A stretch of DNA of 64,000 nt from Bryobacterales bacterium. GTDB taxonomy: Bacteria > Acidobacteriota > Terriglobia > Bryobacterales > Bryobacteraceae. The DNA lies in contig JAEUQF010000152.1 of assembly GCA_016789745.1 (NCBI GenBank), positions 1 through 64,000 of the forward strand, in the 5' to 3' direction. The notes under the pieces were generated by a model. The model was given only the letters and a program-made list of their open reading frames with translations. It was not told the DNA's origin and made no database searches. Numbering within the stretch: the stretch's first letter is position 1; every line of letters begins with the position of its first letter. Of this stretch, positions 8,125 to 45,788 are shown one piece after another. The position numbers and the translations under genes were made by a program.

Positions 8125-8565
8125 GTGTGGAATAACCGCGAAGACAGTCCGGCGCCTCAGCCCCGACGCGAGCCGCGAGTGCACCAGGGGCTGCCTCGCA
8201 ATGCGGCCGTGATTGGCGAGACCATGCATGTGGTGGGCGAGATCCGCAGCATGGAAGAGGTATACGTTGCGGGCAAACTGGATGGCAGCGTGGAGACGCA
8301 GAGCGCGGTCAGCGTGGCGCCGAACGCGAAGGTGAAGGCGAACATCAAGGCGCGCGAGGTGACGATACACGGCACGGTGCTGGGCAGCGTGGTGGTGAGC
8401 GAGAAGATCGTCATTCACGAGAACGGGAGCCTGATCGGCGACATCAAGGCGGCGGGAATTGTGATTGAAGATGGCGCCTATTTCAAGGGCAACATCGATA
8501 TCATTCGGGCGGCGGCTCCTGGGCCGGTGGCCGTGCCGGACCCGGTGCCTCCTTCCGCCATTTGA
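8125..8565 (+). CDS. Bactofilin (polymer-forming cytoskeletal protein)
   Basis: 146 aa. I place the start at the GTG at 8125 because GGAGG (8116-8120) sits 4 nt upstream and the bactofilin core begins soon after; the longer frame from 8041 adds 28 unlikely residues. The core (about 30-125) shows the short hydrophobic beta-helix repeat, e.g. G-E-T-M-H-V-V-G-E-I, V-Y-V-A-G-K-L-D-G, V-T-I-H-G-T-V-L-G and I-V-I-E-D-G-A-Y-F-K-G, with disordered Pro-rich tails. Bactofilins self-assemble without nucleotide into filaments that scaffold cell-wall, stalk or motility machinery. Its last 65 nt overlap the 3' end of the convergent GNAT gene. The 126-nt leader contains small hairpins but no riboswitch I recognise. 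Confidence 0.88.
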   Translation: MWNNREDSPAPQPRREPRVHQGLPRNAAVIGETMHVVGEIRSMEEVYVAGKLDGSVETQSAVSVAPNAKVKANIKAREVTIHGTVLGSVVVSEKIVIHENGSLIGDIKAAGIVIEDGAYFKGNIDIIRAAAPGPVAVPDPVPPSAI

Positions 8566-9352
8566 GGCGGGTATAGGCGATTTGGAAGCCCTGGCGCTGG
8601 GCGTTGCGTTGGGAGCCGCTGCCGGCCTCGGCCACCATCATGGCGAGGTCGCAGTTGTGAGCCTGTGCGTATTGCATGCGGGCCTGGAGCAGGGCGGCTT
8701 GCAGGCCCTTGCGGCGATAGGCGGGGAGGGTGGCGGCTCCGGCAAACATGGCGATGCCGTCGTGGAGGGAGAGCAGCGCCGCGGCGGCCGGGGTGCCTTC
8801 GTAGTAGGCGAGGAAGGCGACGGAGTGCTCGCGGTTGGACTGCAGGGTGCCCATTTGTTCGAGGAAGGGGCGGAGGTCGGGGAGTTCGGCGGCCCAGGCT
8901 TCGGTGGAAACTTGGGACCAGAGGGTGGTGTCGGCGGCGACCGCTACAGTGCTGGCGGAGGGCGCGACCTGGAGGTCGCGCGCAGACGTGGACGTCTGCC
9001 CCACCAGCACGGAAGAGATTTCGATGGGGTGGTAGCCACGCGCGCAGAGCAAAGTTAAGGCGTCGACGCCGGCGAGGGGGCTGAGTTCGAGGTCCGTGTG
9101 CGCGCCGCGTTCGGTGAAGAAGGTTTCCACGTCATCGAGGATTTCGGCGATAAGGGGTTGGGCTACACCGAGGCCGAGGCACTGCGTGATGGGCGAATCG
9201 GCGCCGTCGTAGACCGCAACGCCGCCTCCGATCTCGCGCCAGGTTGCGGCGAATTCGGGATAGAGTTTCTGACGGGCTTCGGCAAACTCACGGCAGGCAT
9301 TGCCTTCGGCGCGTTCGAGGCGGCGGCTAAGGTTCAGATCGACCAGAATCAA
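8501..9352 (-). CDS. GNAT-family N-acetyltransferase with an in-frame REP palindrome
   Basis: 283 aa. The C-terminal half (about 140-265) has the acetyl-CoA-binding motif Y-R-R-K-G-L-Q-A-A-L (212-221) and the following helix; the N-terminal half (1-115) resembles a second degenerate GNAT-like domain. The linker between them (about residues 118-131) is encoded by a perfect twin palindrome of the same kind that flanks the RAYT transposase at 43 kb, so a mobile repeat has apparently inserted without breaking the frame. The gene begins 45 nt after the hybrid kinase stop and may be the last gene of a sigma/kinase/GNAT operon. It converges on and overlaps the bactofilin gene. Substrate unknown. Confidence 0.78.
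   Translation of the reverse strand: MILVDLNLSRRLERAEGNACREFAEARQKLYPEFAATWREIGGGVAVYDGADSPITQCLGLGVAQPLIAEILDDVETFFTERGAHTDLELSPLAGVDALTLLCARGYHPIEISSVLVGQTSTSARDLQVAPSASTVAVAADTTLWSQVSTEAWAAELPDLRPFLEQMGTLQSNREHSVAFLAYYEGTPAAAALLSLHDGIAMFAGAATLPAYRRKGLQAALLQARMQYAQAHNCDLAMMVAEAGSGSQRNAQRQGFQIAYTRLKWRKEAPGPARPPAQEPPPE
8962..8999. repeat. REP-like twin palindrome inside the GNAT gene
   Basis: Two abutting perfect hairpins: GCGCGACCT, loop GG, AGGTCGCGC (8962-8981), then GCAGACGT, loop GG, ACGTCTGC (8982-8999). The architecture (9-bp arm hairpin followed at once by an 8-bp arm hairpin, both with a GG loop, both beginning GC) is the same as at 43521-43558. It keeps the reading frame of the host gene. 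Confidence 0.85.
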
Positions 9353-40383: not shown

Positions 40384-42903
40384 ATGCGCCGCCTGACCTT
40401 TCTCGCGCTGGTTGCCAGCGCCTGCCTGTTTGCGCAACCTTCCCTCAAGGCTCCGTTGCCGAAAGATCACTTTGGTTTCACGCCGGGTGACGATTATAAA
40501 TTGGCCGATTACCAGCAAGTCGTAACGTACTTCCAGAAGTTGGATGAAGCGAGCGACCGGTTGAAGTTGGTGGAGTTCGGCAAGTCCGCTCACGGCAAAC
40601 CTATGTATGTGGCGTTCATCTCCGACCCGCAGAATTTGGAGAAGCTGGACCGCTATCGGGAGATCAGCCGGAAGCTGGCGTTGGGCCAGGGGTCGAGGGA
40701 AGAGGCGATGCGGCTGGCTTCCGAAGGCAAGGCGATTGTGTGGATCGACAGCGGCCTGCATGCCAGCGAAGTAGCTCCGGTGCAGCATTCGCCGCACCTG
40801 GCCTATCGGATGGTGACCGATGAAAGCGAGGAGACGCGGCGGATCCGGCGCAATGTGATTCTGATGCAGATTCCGGTGATCAATCCGGATGGGCTGGATT
40901 GGGTGGCGCACTGGTATCGGAAAAATGTGGGGACGCCATATGAACAGGCCACGCTGCCGCAGTTGTATCAGAAGTATGCCGGACACGATAACAATCGCGA
41001 CTGGTACATGCTGAACCTGGACGAGACGCGGGCGGTGACCAAGCTGCTGTTTCAGGACTGGTTTCCGCAGATTGTCTACAACCAGCACCAGCAGCCGCCC
41101 TTCCCCGCGCGGATTTTTGTGCCGCCGTACGCGGAGCCTTTGAATCCGCACATACCGGCGCCGGTGATGGAAGGGATCCATCTGATCGGGGCTGCCATGA
41201 AGGAGCGGTTTGCGCGCGAGAACAAGCCGGGAGTGCTGTCGTATTGGGGTTTTGACGGGTGGTGGAATGGCGGGTTGCGATCGGTGCCGGCGTTTCACAA
41301 CATGCACGGGATTTTGACGGAGACGGCCGGGGCCGGCGCATCGCCGCGGACGTACCGCGCGCAGGATATCCCGGAGAGGTTTGGGAATGGGATCCCCGCG
41401 CGGGAGCCTTCGATCTTCTTCCAACGGCCGTACACGGGCGGTACGTGGCGGCTGGCCGATGCGGTGGAGTACATGCTGACGGCGGACTGCGCGATTCTGA
41501 ATCTGGCGGCGACGCAGCCTGCGGATTTTCTGTTCAAGGCATGGGATCTGGCGACGGCGAACATCGCGATGGGGAAGAAGGGCAAGCCGTATGCGTACGT
41601 GGTGCCGGAGCAGCCGGACCGGCATGCGATGCGGGAGATGCTGCGGCGATTGCAGATGGCTGGGGTGGTAGTGCAGCAGGCGCGCAGCGGGTTCACGGCA
41701 GGCGACAAGGCTTATGGGGCGGGCACGTATGTGCTGCCGGCGGGTCAGCCGTTCCGGCCGTACCTGATGGATCTGATGGAGCCGCAGAAGTATCCGGAGA
41801 TTCGCAGCGGGCAATCGGGGCCGACCAAGCGGCCGTATGACGTAGCCGGATGGACCATGCGGATGATGATGGGCGTGAAGGTGGATCGGGTGGATGAGCC
41901 GTTCGAGGCTCCGCTGAACAATGATCCGGATCTGCGGTTGCCGGAGCCGAGCCTGGATCATCGGGACACGTCGTCTTATTTAGCGACGGTAGATTTGTTG
42001 AAGGTTGGGACGAAGGTGCGGTGGGCGGCAGATGGGACGGTATTGGCGGAAGGCAAGTCGCCAGCGGGCGAGTTTGCAAGGGCGGCGTGGGAACTGCAGA
42101 TGCCTCGGGTGGGGTTGTACGAGCCGTATACGGCGAACATGGACACGGGCTGGACCGAGTGGATGCTGGACTATTTCCGTGTGCCGCACACCATGTTGAA
42201 GAATGAGGAGATTCGCAAGGGCGGGCTGCGGACGCGGTATGACACGATCATTCTGGCGTCGCAGGCGGCGAACTCGATTCTGCATGGGGTGCGGTTGGGC
42301 GAGGCGGGGCGCGGCAGGAATCCGGGCGAGGCGGCAGTACAGCAGCGGCCGGAGTATGCCGGTGGGATCACGCTGGCGGGTCTGGCAGCGTTGGATGATT
42401 TTGTGCGCAGCGGCGGGACGCTGCTGGCGTTTGATGCCGCGACGGAGTTGCCGGTGCAGTTCTTCCCGCTGCCGGTGACCGGGCGGTTGCGGGCGCGGGC
42501 AGAGGGAGAGGCGGACGATGGGGCGGGTGGGGGATTCTATTCGCCGGGGTCGCTGCTGCGGATGACCGTGGATGCGTCGCACCCGCTAGCGTTTGGGATG
42601 GAGAAGGAGGGGTATTTGTTCACGTCGGGAGGGCAGGCCTGGGATGTGAGCCTGCTGCCGGAGTTTAACAAGGGCGAGCGCGAGGTGAAGTCCGTGGTGC
42701 GGTATGCGGGGAAGGAATTGCTGGCAAGCGGGTGGGTGTCCGGCGAGCGGGCGGTGCTGGGGAAATCGGCACTGGTCCAGGCGCGGCACGGCCAGGGACA
42801 GGTGGTGTTGTTTGGCTTCCGGCCACAGTTTCGCGGACAAAGTTGGGGAACGTTCAAGTTGATCTTGAACGCGATTTATCTGGGCTCAGCCCGGCGGCTG
42901 TAG
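40384..42903 (+). CDS. Secreted M14-family zinc carboxypeptidase
   Basis: 839 aa with a signal peptide (M-R-R-L-T-F-L-A-L-V-A-S-A-C-L-F-A-Q). Zinc ligands H126 and E129 in G-L-H-A-S-E and a histidine such as H235 in N-Q-H-Q-Q; N-P-D-G at 167-170 and N-N-R-D-W at 203-207 also fit M14. The residues beyond about 500 form a GATase-like domain (D-D-F-V-R-S-G-G-T-L-L-A-F-D-A-A near 675) common in Solibacter-type homologues. It releases C-terminal amino acids or acts on peptidoglycan peptides; substrate not predictable. The TAG stop is followed 2 nt later by a REP-like twin palindrome. Confidence 0.9.
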   Translation: MRRLTFLALVASACLFAQPSLKAPLPKDHFGFTPGDDYKLADYQQVVTYFQKLDEASDRLKLVEFGKSAHGKPMYVAFISDPQNLEKLDRYREISRKLALGQGSREEAMRLASEGKAIVWIDSGLHASEVAPVQHSPHLAYRMVTDESEETRRIRRNVILMQIPVINPDGLDWVAHWYRKNVGTPYEQATLPQLYQKYAGHDNNRDWYMLNLDETRAVTKLLFQDWFPQIVYNQHQQPPFPARIFVPPYAEPLNPHIPAPVMEGIHLIGAAMKERFARENKPGVLSYWGFDGWWNGGLRSVPAFHNMHGILTETAGAGASPRTYRAQDIPERFGNGIPAREPSIFFQRPYTGGTWRLADAVEYMLTADCAILNLAATQPADFLFKAWDLATANIAMGKKGKPYAYVVPEQPDRHAMREMLRRLQMAGVVVQQARSGFTAGDKAYGAGTYVLPAGQPFRPYLMDLMEPQKYPEIRSGQSGPTKRPYDVAGWTMRMMMGVKVDRVDEPFEAPLNNDPDLRLPEPSLDHRDTSSYLATVDLLKVGTKVRWAADGTVLAEGKSPAGEFARAAWELQMPRVGLYEPYTANMDTGWTEWMLDYFRVPHTMLKNEEIRKGGLRTRYDTIILASQAANSILHGVRLGEAGRGRNPGEAAVQQRPEYAGGITLAGLAALDDFVRSGGTLLAFDAATELPVQFFPLPVTGRLRARAEGEADDGAGGGFYSPGSLLRMTVDASHPLAFGMEKEGYLFTSGGQAWDVSLLPEFNKGEREVKSVVRYAGKELLASGWVSGERAVLGKSALVQARHGQGQVVLFGFRPQFRGQSWGTFKLILNAIYLGSARRL

Positions 42904-42904
42904 G

Positions 42905-42943
42905 GCAGACCTTTGGTCTGCGGGATGGCCTCCTGGCCATCCC
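42905..42943. repeat. REP-like twin palindrome upstream of the RAYT gene
   Basis: GCAGACC, loop TTT, GGTCTGC (42905-42921) directly followed by GGGATGGCC, loop TCCT, GGCCATCCC (42922-42943). Same two-hairpin design as the copies at 43521 and 8962, though the second hairpin differs in sequence. It sits between the M14 stop and the transposase start. Confidence 0.75.
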
Positions 42944-42949
42944 AACGCG

Positions 42950-43567
42950 GTGGGTGAGAGAAGCGGCGGGCGGGCCGCACTATATGAGGTGGAATTCTAC
43001 CGCCGGAAGTTGCCGCACGCTTACGAGATTGGCAGCCCGATCTTTCTCACTTGGGGACTGCGAGGTAGTCTTCCAAAGGGACGCAGATTTACCAATGAAG
43101 TAGTCCAATCCGGACGGGCCTTTGTTGCAATGGACAGGTTGTTAGACAACGCCCGCGCTGGACCTTTGTATCTCAAGCAGCCCGCAATCGCGCAGTTGGT
43201 TTTCGATGCGATTGCCTATGGGGAGCGGGAACTGAACCGCTACCAGGTACACGAGTTTGTGGTGATGGCAAACCACGTCCATCTGCTGATTACGCCGCTG
43301 GTGCCGGTGCCGGAGATCACCCGTACGTTGAAGGGTATTACCTCCAGGCAGGCCAACCGGGCGCTGGGGCTGACGGGTACTCCTTTCTGGGAGGTGGAGA
43401 CCTACGATCACCTGGTGCGCAGTGCCGGCGAGTTTGAACGCATCCGGCACTACATCCTGCAGAATCCCGTTCGTGCTGGAGTGGTGGCAGCGCCTGAGCA
43501 GTTACCTTGGTCCAGCGGCAGCGCGACGTGGACGTCGCGCGCAGGCGTGGACGCCTGCCGTACTTGA
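42950..43567 (+). CDS. REP-associated tyrosine transposase (RAYT, Y1/HUH family)
   Basis: 205 aa, start taken at a GTG (42950). Typical opening F-Y-R-R-K-L-P-H; HUH motif in V-V-M-A-N-H109-V-H111-L-L-I; catalytic Y152 in E-T-Y-D-H-L-V-R-S, followed by E-F-E-R-I-R-H-Y-I-L-Q-N-P-V-R-A-G-V, the standard RAYT tail. Related to IS200/IS605 TnpA, these single-copy chromosomal enzymes cut and move REP/BIME palindromes. Twin palindromes flank it on both sides, the right one inside its own last codons (residues about 191-203), so the extreme C-terminus is made of repeat DNA. Confidence 0.9.
   Translation: MGERSGGRAALYEVEFYRRKLPHAYEIGSPIFLTWGLRGSLPKGRRFTNEVVQSGRAFVAMDRLLDNARAGPLYLKQPAIAQLVFDAIAYGERELNRYQVHEFVVMANHVHLLITPLVPVPEITRTLKGITSRQANRALGLTGTPFWEVETYDHLVRSAGEFERIRHYILQNPVRAGVVAAPEQLPWSSGSATWTSRAGVDACRT
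43521..43558. repeat. REP-like twin palindrome at the end of the RAYT gene
   Basis: GCGCGACGT, loop GG, ACGTCGCGC (43521-43540) directly followed by GCAGGCGT, loop GG, ACGCCTGC (43541-43558). Each differs by only a few paired bases from the copy at 8962-8999, i.e. compensated changes that keep the hairpins. Confidence 0.88.
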
Positions 43568-43688
43568 GCCGGGCGCAAAGATCTGCTCCTGCCCCACTCT
43601 GTGAGGATTGTGTTACTATCCCGGTTTGGATTAGGAGTCTTTACCTTTCTTAATCTTTATCGCCTAGTTGAGCGGAGATCAAAACCAT

Positions 43689-45788
43689 ATGAGGGTCTAC
43701 GAGAGTTCGGAAATCCGGAACGTGGCTTTGGCCGGACACGGCCATAGCGGCAAGACGTCATTGGCGGCCGCGATGTTTTATGCCGCCGGGGTGACGAACC
43801 GGTTGACTCGCGTCGATGAGGGAAACACCCTGACCGACTTCGACGACGAGGAGATAGGCCGCAAGATGACCATCTCGACCGGGATCGCCGCATTGGAGTG
43901 GAAGAAGCGCAAGTTTAACATTCTGGATACGCCGGGCTTCAACATATTCATTCATGACGCAAAGGCGGCGATGGTGGCCGCCGATGCCACGCTGGTCTTG
44001 GTGGATGGCGTGGCGGGCGTGGAAGTACAGACCGAACGGGTGTGGGGCTTTGCCGAGGAATACGAGCATGCCAAGGCAATCGTGATCAACAAGCTCGATC
44101 GCGAGCGGGCGGATTTTGCGCGCACGATGGAGAGCATCCGGGAGACGTTAGGACGCCAGGCCGTGGCCGTGCAGATCCCGATCGGAAGCGAGAAGAACTT
44201 CACCGGTGTGGTGGACCTGATCTACATGAAGGCCTACACCTACGCCCCTGGCGGGGATGGGAAAGGCAAGGAAATGCCGATTCCGGCCGATATGCAGGAA
44301 GCGGCCACCAAAGGGCACGAAGAATTGGTGGAGATGGTGGCCGAAGGCAACGACGAACTGATGCAGGAGTTTTTCGACACCGGCACGATCGGCATTGAGC
44401 ACCTGACGCACGGTCTTCGGCAGGCGATTGTGGATCACCGGCTTTCGCCGGTGCTGCTGGCGTCGGCGACGGGCAATATCGGCACCGACCAGATCTTGAA
44501 CTTCATCTGGGACTACTTCCCTGCCCCGATTGAGCATGCCAAGGTGCGGGCGCACCGCGCCGGGGGCGAGGACATCGAACGGGCGATTTCGGATGCCGAG
44601 CACGTTGCTCTGTTCGTGTTTAAGACGGTGGCCGATCAGTTTTCGGGCCGGGTATCGTACTTCAAGGTGATGTCGGGAGTTGTGAAGAACGACGCCAACC
44701 TGGTGACGGTACGTTCGGGAAGCCAGGAGCGGCTGGCGCACCTGAGCGTGTTGAAGGGCAAGACGCTGGACGCGGTGACCGAACTGCACGCAGGCGATCT
44801 GGGCGCGGTGGCGAAGTTACGCGATGCACTTACGGGCGACACGCTGGCCGAAAAGGGAGATCAGATTGCTTACACGCCGGTGAGTGTGCCGGAGCCGTCG
44901 ATTGCCTTTGCAGTGTCGGCCAAGACGCGGCAGGACGAAGATCGTATGGGTAACGCGATTGCGCGCATGCTGGAAGAAGACATTGCGCTGCGCTTTTATC
45001 GCGATCCGCAGACAAAGGATTTCCTGGTGGCGGGCATGGGCCAGCAGCACGTGGAAATCGTGGTGAACAAGCTGAAAAAGCGCTACAGCGTGGATGTGAC
45101 GCTGTCGGCGCCGAAGATTCCGTATCGCGAGACGATTCGCGGCTTTGCCGATGTGCAGGGACGCCATAAGAAGCAGACCGGCGGGCACGGGCAGTTCGGC
45201 GACTGCAAGATCAAGATGGAGCCGCTGCCCCGGGGCGAGAAGTTCGCGTTTGTGAATGCGATTTTCGGCGGTGCGATTCCGAAGCAGTACGTGCCGGCAG
45301 TGGAGAAAGGCATTCTGGAGGCCGCCGAGCGCGGCTACCTGGCCGGATACCCGGTGGTGGACTTCAAGGTAACGGTGTACGACGGGTCCTATCATGACGT
45401 CGACAGCTCGGAAATGGCGTTCAAGCTGGCCGGACGGAAGGCGTTCAAGGCGGCGATGGCGATGGCGAAGCCGACATTGCTGGAGCCGATCATGAAGGTG
45501 GAGGTGCAGGCGCCGGTGGAGTATGCCGGTGATCTCATGGGAGACATGAACGGTCGGCGTGGGCGCATTTCGGGGATGGATACGAAAGGCGGAACACAGA
45601 TTGTCCGCGCGATGGTTCCCATGTCAGAGATGCTTACGTATCAGAACGAACTAACCTCCATGACACAAGGCAGGGCCAGCTTTACAATGGAGTTTGATCA
45701 CTATGATTACGTGCCTGCGCCGCAGGCTGAGAAGATCATAGCGGCGGCGAAGGCAGCGCAGGTCGGTCACGAAGAAGACGAGGAGTAA
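43689..45788 (+). CDS. Elongation factor G paralogue (EF-G2-type translational GTPase)
   Basis: 699 aa from the ATG at 43689 (a TTG at 43668 is in frame). GTPase motifs: G1 A-G-H-G-H-S-G-K-T-S, G3 D-T-P-G-F, G4 N-K-L-D. Then EF-G domains II to V (G-G-H-G-Q-F-G-D in domain IV, G-D-L-M-G-D-M-N-G-R-R-G-R-I in domain V). The G1 loop and the lack of the usual R-G-I-T-I switch (here R-K-M-T-I) separate it from canonical fusA; no str operon genes are nearby. Role may be translocation under special conditions or ribosome recycling. A strong hairpin follows the stop. Confidence 0.88.
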   Translation: MRVYESSEIRNVALAGHGHSGKTSLAAAMFYAAGVTNRLTRVDEGNTLTDFDDEEIGRKMTISTGIAALEWKKRKFNILDTPGFNIFIHDAKAAMVAADATLVLVDGVAGVEVQTERVWGFAEEYEHAKAIVINKLDRERADFARTMESIRETLGRQAVAVQIPIGSEKNFTGVVDLIYMKAYTYAPGGDGKGKEMPIPADMQEAATKGHEELVEMVAEGNDELMQEFFDTGTIGIEHLTHGLRQAIVDHRLSPVLLASATGNIGTDQILNFIWDYFPAPIEHAKVRAHRAGGEDIERAISDAEHVALFVFKTVADQFSGRVSYFKVMSGVVKNDANLVTVRSGSQERLAHLSVLKGKTLDAVTELHAGDLGAVAKLRDALTGDTLAEKGDQIAYTPVSVPEPSIAFAVSAKTRQDEDRMGNAIARMLEEDIALRFYRDPQTKDFLVAGMGQQHVEIVVNKLKKRYSVDVTLSAPKIPYRETIRGFADVQGRHKKQTGGHGQFGDCKIKMEPLPRGEKFAFVNAIFGGAIPKQYVPAVEKGILEAAERGYLAGYPVVDFKVTVYDGSYHDVDSSEMAFKLAGRKAFKAAMAMAKPTLLEPIMKVEVQAPVEYAGDLMGDMNGRRGRISGMDTKGGTQIVRAMVPMSEMLTYQNELTSMTQGRASFTMEFDHYDYVPAPQAEKIIAAAKAAQVGHEEDEE

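Follow-up and report, generated by a model that had tools for sequence, protein, structure and literature searches.

We conclude, with a probability of roughly 85%, that the unit found in the window (the whole 64-kb stretch of DNA that was analyzed) is a REPtron, that is, a single-copy TnpA-REP/RAYT transposase gene located between two inverted cognate REPs, and that the repeat-encoded tail of the transposase is a tolerated by-product of this arrangement. The window lies on contig C391 of a 10.06-Mb genome from a soil bacterium, assembled in 499 contigs, whose nearest protein relatives among named genomes belong to the Bryobacterales/Bryobacteraceae (Acidobacteriota). A single Y1_Tnp gene is located there between the genes encoding an M14 peptidase (40384-42903, plus strand) and an EF-G-like protein (43668-45788). 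This assignment would add Bryobacterales-type Acidobacteriota to the organisms with RAYT/REP modules whose REPs are double hairpins headed by GT[AG]GG.

The transposase ORF is open from position 42869, has its first listed start, a GTG, at 42950 (205 amino acids) and stops at 43567. Alignment with relatives suggests that translation probably begins at another GTG, at 42989, giving a protein of 192 amino acids (42989-43567, plus strand). The protein matches the Pfam family Y1_Tnp (E=6e-6), and its best NCBIfam match is REP_Tyr_transpos (NF047646; E=1e-16), at 61.1 bits and under the curated cut-off of 80 bits, which is a model threshold and not a biological defining feature. E. coli TnpA-REP (4er8) is the top match in both sequence and fold, the latter from a PDB search (E=1e-8) with an AlphaFold model of mean pLDDT 85 and pTM 0.82. 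The Y1/HUH catalytic core is present, with an HxH motif and a nucleophilic Tyr within YIxxNP, and both the HUH motif and YIxxNPVRAG are kept in relatives. In addition, the NP(L/V)(R/K)xG motif described beside the nucleophilic Tyr (PMC2817692) is found as NPVRAG, and the guide-reading W, D, H and R of the FWxxExYDHxxR stretch agree with those of the GTAG-reading subclasses listed in PMC6006769. An earlier, sequence-only reading of this DNA had correctly placed the HxH motif at residues 109-111 (205-residue numbering) and had taken Tyr152, in ETYDH, as the nucleophile. The position of E. coli TnpA-REP that lines up with Tyr152 is not a Tyr; by the same alignment, the predicted nucleophile is Tyr168 of YILQNPVRAG (Tyr155 of the 192-residue protein), which corresponds to the Tyr of the TnpA-REP motif YIxxNPVK.

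The left REP (42900-42943, plus strand) consists of the head GTAGG, hairpin 1 (42905-42921; 7-bp arms, 3-nt loop) and, abutting it, hairpin 2 (42922-42943; 9-bp arms, 4-nt loop). The right REP (43521-43563) is inverted and lies on the minus strand, with hairpin 2 at 43521-43540 (9-bp arms, 2-nt loop), the abutting hairpin 1 at 43541-43558 (8-bp arms, 2-nt loop) and the head at 43559-43563, which reads GTACG on the minus strand; its GTAC departs from the GT[AG]G form, to which the GTAG of the left REP conforms. The gene had been described as bracketed by twin palindromes, and the two-hairpin architecture does occur on both sides, but the arms differ and the orientations are opposite: the left and right REPs are an inverted pair of family members with different stem sequences. 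The stop codon of the M14 gene had been placed, with 2 further nt, ahead of the element, when in fact this TAG (42901-42903) falls within the left GTAGG head. The window contains three pairs of abutting, perfect hairpins whose arms measure at least 7 bp, the third at 8962-8999, whereas Markov-simulated windows contained 0-1 such pairs each and 3 in total over 10 runs. Folded as single strands, all three pairs are predicted to form two adjacent hairpins (z of -6.2, -5.0 and -4.4 against shuffled sequences). One dispersed copy, on contig C389, matches the two hairpins of the right REP without a difference over 38 nt.

REP copies were sampled in the genome by means of pattern searches and region fetches. 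Comparison of the dispersed copies reveals an oriented element that comprises a GT[AG]GG head, a first hairpin that mostly reads GCAG[AG]C...G[CT]CTGC, and an abutting second hairpin with a variable stem; the heads are GTAGG or GTGGG, so that the copies carry the 5' GT[AG]G foot of known REPs. A pattern made of the head and hairpin 1 matched 44 sites with at most 3 mismatches, compared with 0 for a reversed-pattern control, and the repeat is therefore not restricted to the copies at this locus. Gene placement with a simple home-made codon-usage gene finder, scored for 38 REPs, put 19 between genes, 9 across the 3' end of a gene and 10 inside genes. At a coding density of 89%, the probability that 10 or fewer of 38 would fall inside genes is about 1e-19. 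The genome-wide search for the two-hairpin pattern thus revealed a dispersed repeat of some 38 copies biased away from coding DNA, and the family is multicopy and mainly extragenic (28/38 not inside genes) alongside a single-copy RAYT. In relatives this REP is absent, present in few copies or differently stemmed, and many of their RAYTs carry distinct flanking double hairpins of their own, several of them headed GT[AG]GG. The earlier proposal of a REP/RAYT module is upheld by these results: a dispersed repeat (44 sites against none), its bias against coding DNA, and its absence or difference in several relatives.

A clean empty site was not found among the genomes compared, in which M14 and EF-G are adjacent in the source genome only. 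The GTAG head may be target DNA or may be brought in by the REP. In M14 orthologs that do not have the insert, GTAG is a frequent ending (CTGTAG/CAGTAG), but for two other genes whose stop lies in a REP head, encoding a methyltransferase and MsrA, the stop codon of most orthologs is TGA or TAA. In one relative (G004; loci L349 and L242), a REP is located just past the msrA and GNAT orthologs, near the REPs found at or in the same genes of the source genome (G000), and it is possible that these two sites are REP hot spots shared between the two genomes. Downstream of the RAYT gene, the sequence TTGTGTTACTATCCC (window 43606-43621), located 5' of the EF-G-like gene, recurs 5' of its orthologs in three other loci (L105, L110 and L111) and is probably the promoter or leader of that gene.

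An alternative explanation is that the RAYT and both repeats together form an IS200/IS605-like unit that transposes whole, given that the gene is bracketed by inverted subterminal hairpins and that its genomic neighbors differ in relatives. We consider this unlikely. IS200/IS605 elements are recognized by multiple near-identical copies of the gene together with its ends, and this RAYT is the sole Y1_Tnp gene in the 10.06-Mb genome; no near-identical second copies were found, and its best relatives in the genus are at most 54% identical. Since the EF-G and M14 orthologs of the same genus are about 71-77% identical, the RAYT turns over faster than the genome.

The right repeat encodes residues 191-203 of the 205-residue ORF (178-190 of 192), as had been noted from the sequence. 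In the AlphaFold model these residues lie mostly in blocks with mean pLDDT of 58 and 37, compared with more than 90 for most of the core, and the tail is thus predicted to be disordered or of low confidence. Comparison with other Acidobacteriota RAYTs showed that the 3' repeat starts at a median of about 19 nt past the Trp codon of a terminal WSS motif. Of the 24 Acidobacteriota loci in which an inverted repeat could be detected between the 5' and 3' flanks, 19 have an ORF that runs into the 3' repeat, compared with 10 of 26 loci elsewhere (Fisher p=0.005, which is only indicative because the loci are related and not independent). The window's own locus stands outside these 24, its two repeats being too unlike for the inverted-repeat test, and, given the 10/26 overlaps outside the Acidobacteriota, the contrast between the two groups is one of degree. 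Among relatives, the endpoint of the ORF varies: it may fall within the repeat or its head, shortly after the repeat, or far beyond in host DNA, at distances of up to more than 100 nt.

Overlaps of this kind have precedents. REPs have been found very near or immediately after RAYT stop codons (PMC2817692), and a 2013 study (PMC3733652) describes flanking repeats that overlap the 3' ends of tyrosine transposase genes, GTAG repeats that supply TAG stop codons, and REPs inside ORFs. Translation through a REP had been regarded as unusual; in view of the 19/24 Acidobacteriota loci and of the comparable overlaps in the 2013 study, it is not, and the repeat-encoded C-terminus belongs to a known pattern that is not peculiar to the window's locus. 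In this Acidobacteriota clade, the transposase gene routinely takes its last codons and its stop from the repeat or the flank.

Another alternative is that this C-terminus is functional, in the sense that translating the hairpins couples the level or the folding of the RAYT to the state of the element, as a form of autoregulation. The recurrence of the overlap across most Acidobacteriota RAYTs indicates that selection, at least, does not act against it. Nevertheless, the tail sequence is not conserved in relatives, its length and the reading of the repeat also differ from locus to locus, and the tail is predicted to be disordered; the proposed tie of expression or folding to the repeat finds no support in these data, and we regard a functional tail as improbable, marginally more so than transposition of the whole unit. 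Finally, a role of the palindromes as transcription terminators or structural RNA, with no relation to the transposase, is very improbable, for although many copies lie at gene 3' ends, an Rfam scan of the locus gave no match, no T-run follows the hairpins, some copies lie in frame within genes, the copies share an asymmetrical GT[AG]GG head, and the RAYTs of relatives bear different double hairpins of their own, several with the same head.

TnpA-REP proteins bind the REP hairpin as single-stranded DNA, read its 5' GT[AG]G foot and cleave by means of a Tyr. Taking the unit as a REPtron, the RAYT would, by analogy, cleave through Tyr155 (192-residue numbering) and join REP ends elsewhere, spreading the short REPs and not its own gene. 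We infer that the RAYT coding sequence of this clade has been pared down to a catalytic core ending at WSS, with the inverted repeat starting right after it, so that the repeat or the abutting DNA would provide the stop codon as well as the final residues. The disordered tail would then be a tolerated by-product of compactness and most likely not a regulatory device.

A further property of the family concerns its copies inside genes. One of them is located in the window, at 8962-9004 (minus strand), inside a GNAT acetyltransferase gene (8501-9352, minus strand), where it encodes, in frame, VGQTSTSARDLQVA and occupies the place of a variable linker ahead of the GNAT domain. By inspection, all six frames of the REP sequence are free of stop codons. 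Of the 10 in-gene REPs, 8 share one frame, encoding VGQ(A/T)S(T/K/R)(P/S)A(R/S/G)DLQVA or close variants. Mapping of Pfam domains placed most of these REPs between or beyond domains: AXE1/S9, Big_2/DUF1549, after HlyD, before SLT, after prolyl oligopeptidase, before methyltransferase, after DUF3656 and before GNAT. Orthologs from the genus have no REP at the sites compared. In six genes, the length of the linker minus that of relatives was +9, +0.5, +6, -4, -3.5 and +0.7 residues, where a plain insertion would give +14. In addition, REPs inside genes are a feature of the source genome (10/38), with 0 of 73 in five relatives (Fisher p=9e-6).

Pure chance was rejected as an account of the frame bias, with p=2e-5 if the frames are equally likely (1/6 each) and p=0.001 or 0.012, given their codon phase, if the REP targets GTGGG or GTGG, respectively. 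Both of these sequences favor codon phase 0 in the source genome, and the codon phase of the target may account for part of the bias. It is conceivable, and we propose it tentatively as the less likely reading of these data, that RAYT-mobilized REPs act as ready-made protein linkers that have a preferred frame, replace interdomain linkers without lengthening them and, in addition, provide the C-terminus of the RAYT itself. We keep linker replacement at the level of a hypothesis since the ancestral linkers are uncertain at about 60% identity and the genes were placed with a home-made gene finder. In the source genome, the idea that mobile REPs serve as in-frame linkers of proteins can be put to the test, and a candidate enzyme is known.

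Among the loci inspected, L021, L022, L024, L032, L036, L039, L050 and L226 carry in-gene REPs (near locus position 1500) in unrelated proteins and mostly in one frame. In L039, the C-terminus of the prolyl oligopeptidase is longer than in its orthologs owing to the REP. In the sulfatase gene of L023 (1243-2187), the match to the Sulfatase domain is limited to its C-terminal part, and a split REP lies at the expected place of the N-terminal part, possibly the result of a REP-associated deletion.

The locus resembles the RAYT/TnpA-REP REPtrons (PMC2817692; 4er8) in its Y1/HUH enzyme with NP(L/V)(R/K)xG, in its single-copy gene between two inverted REPs, and in REPs that are dispersed, lie mostly between genes and carry a 5' GT[AG]G foot. 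It differs from them in that the REP is made of two abutting hairpins, the second with a variable stem, and in that the downstream REP lies inside the coding sequence, where theirs lies just past the stop codon. The NHVH, W and YI[LR][NQ]NP motifs, the GT[AG]G REPs and the lack of a conserved post-core domain are shared with TnpA-Y1 subclass 2.7 (PMC6006769), a likeness based on described features; this subclass is mainly cyanobacterial in that sample. The GTAG REPs, REPtrons and TIRtrons of PMC3733652 similarly have 3'-overlapping repeats, TAG stops supplied by GTAG and REPs in ORFs, although the Acidobacteriota examples given there are TIR-flanked transposases; neither a REP frame bias nor linker replacement was found in the sections consulted, and what is new here is the presence of in-gene REPs, mostly in one frame and, where compared, in linkers of nearly unchanged length. 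Finally, Rickettsia palindromic elements are in-frame palindromes within protein genes (Ogata 2000, as summarized in PMC10969869). Compared by that description, they share with the present REPs an in-frame residence in genes (10/38 copies here), but they measure about 150 bp, whereas the REPs of this genome are 43 nt long and have a candidate cognate RAYT.
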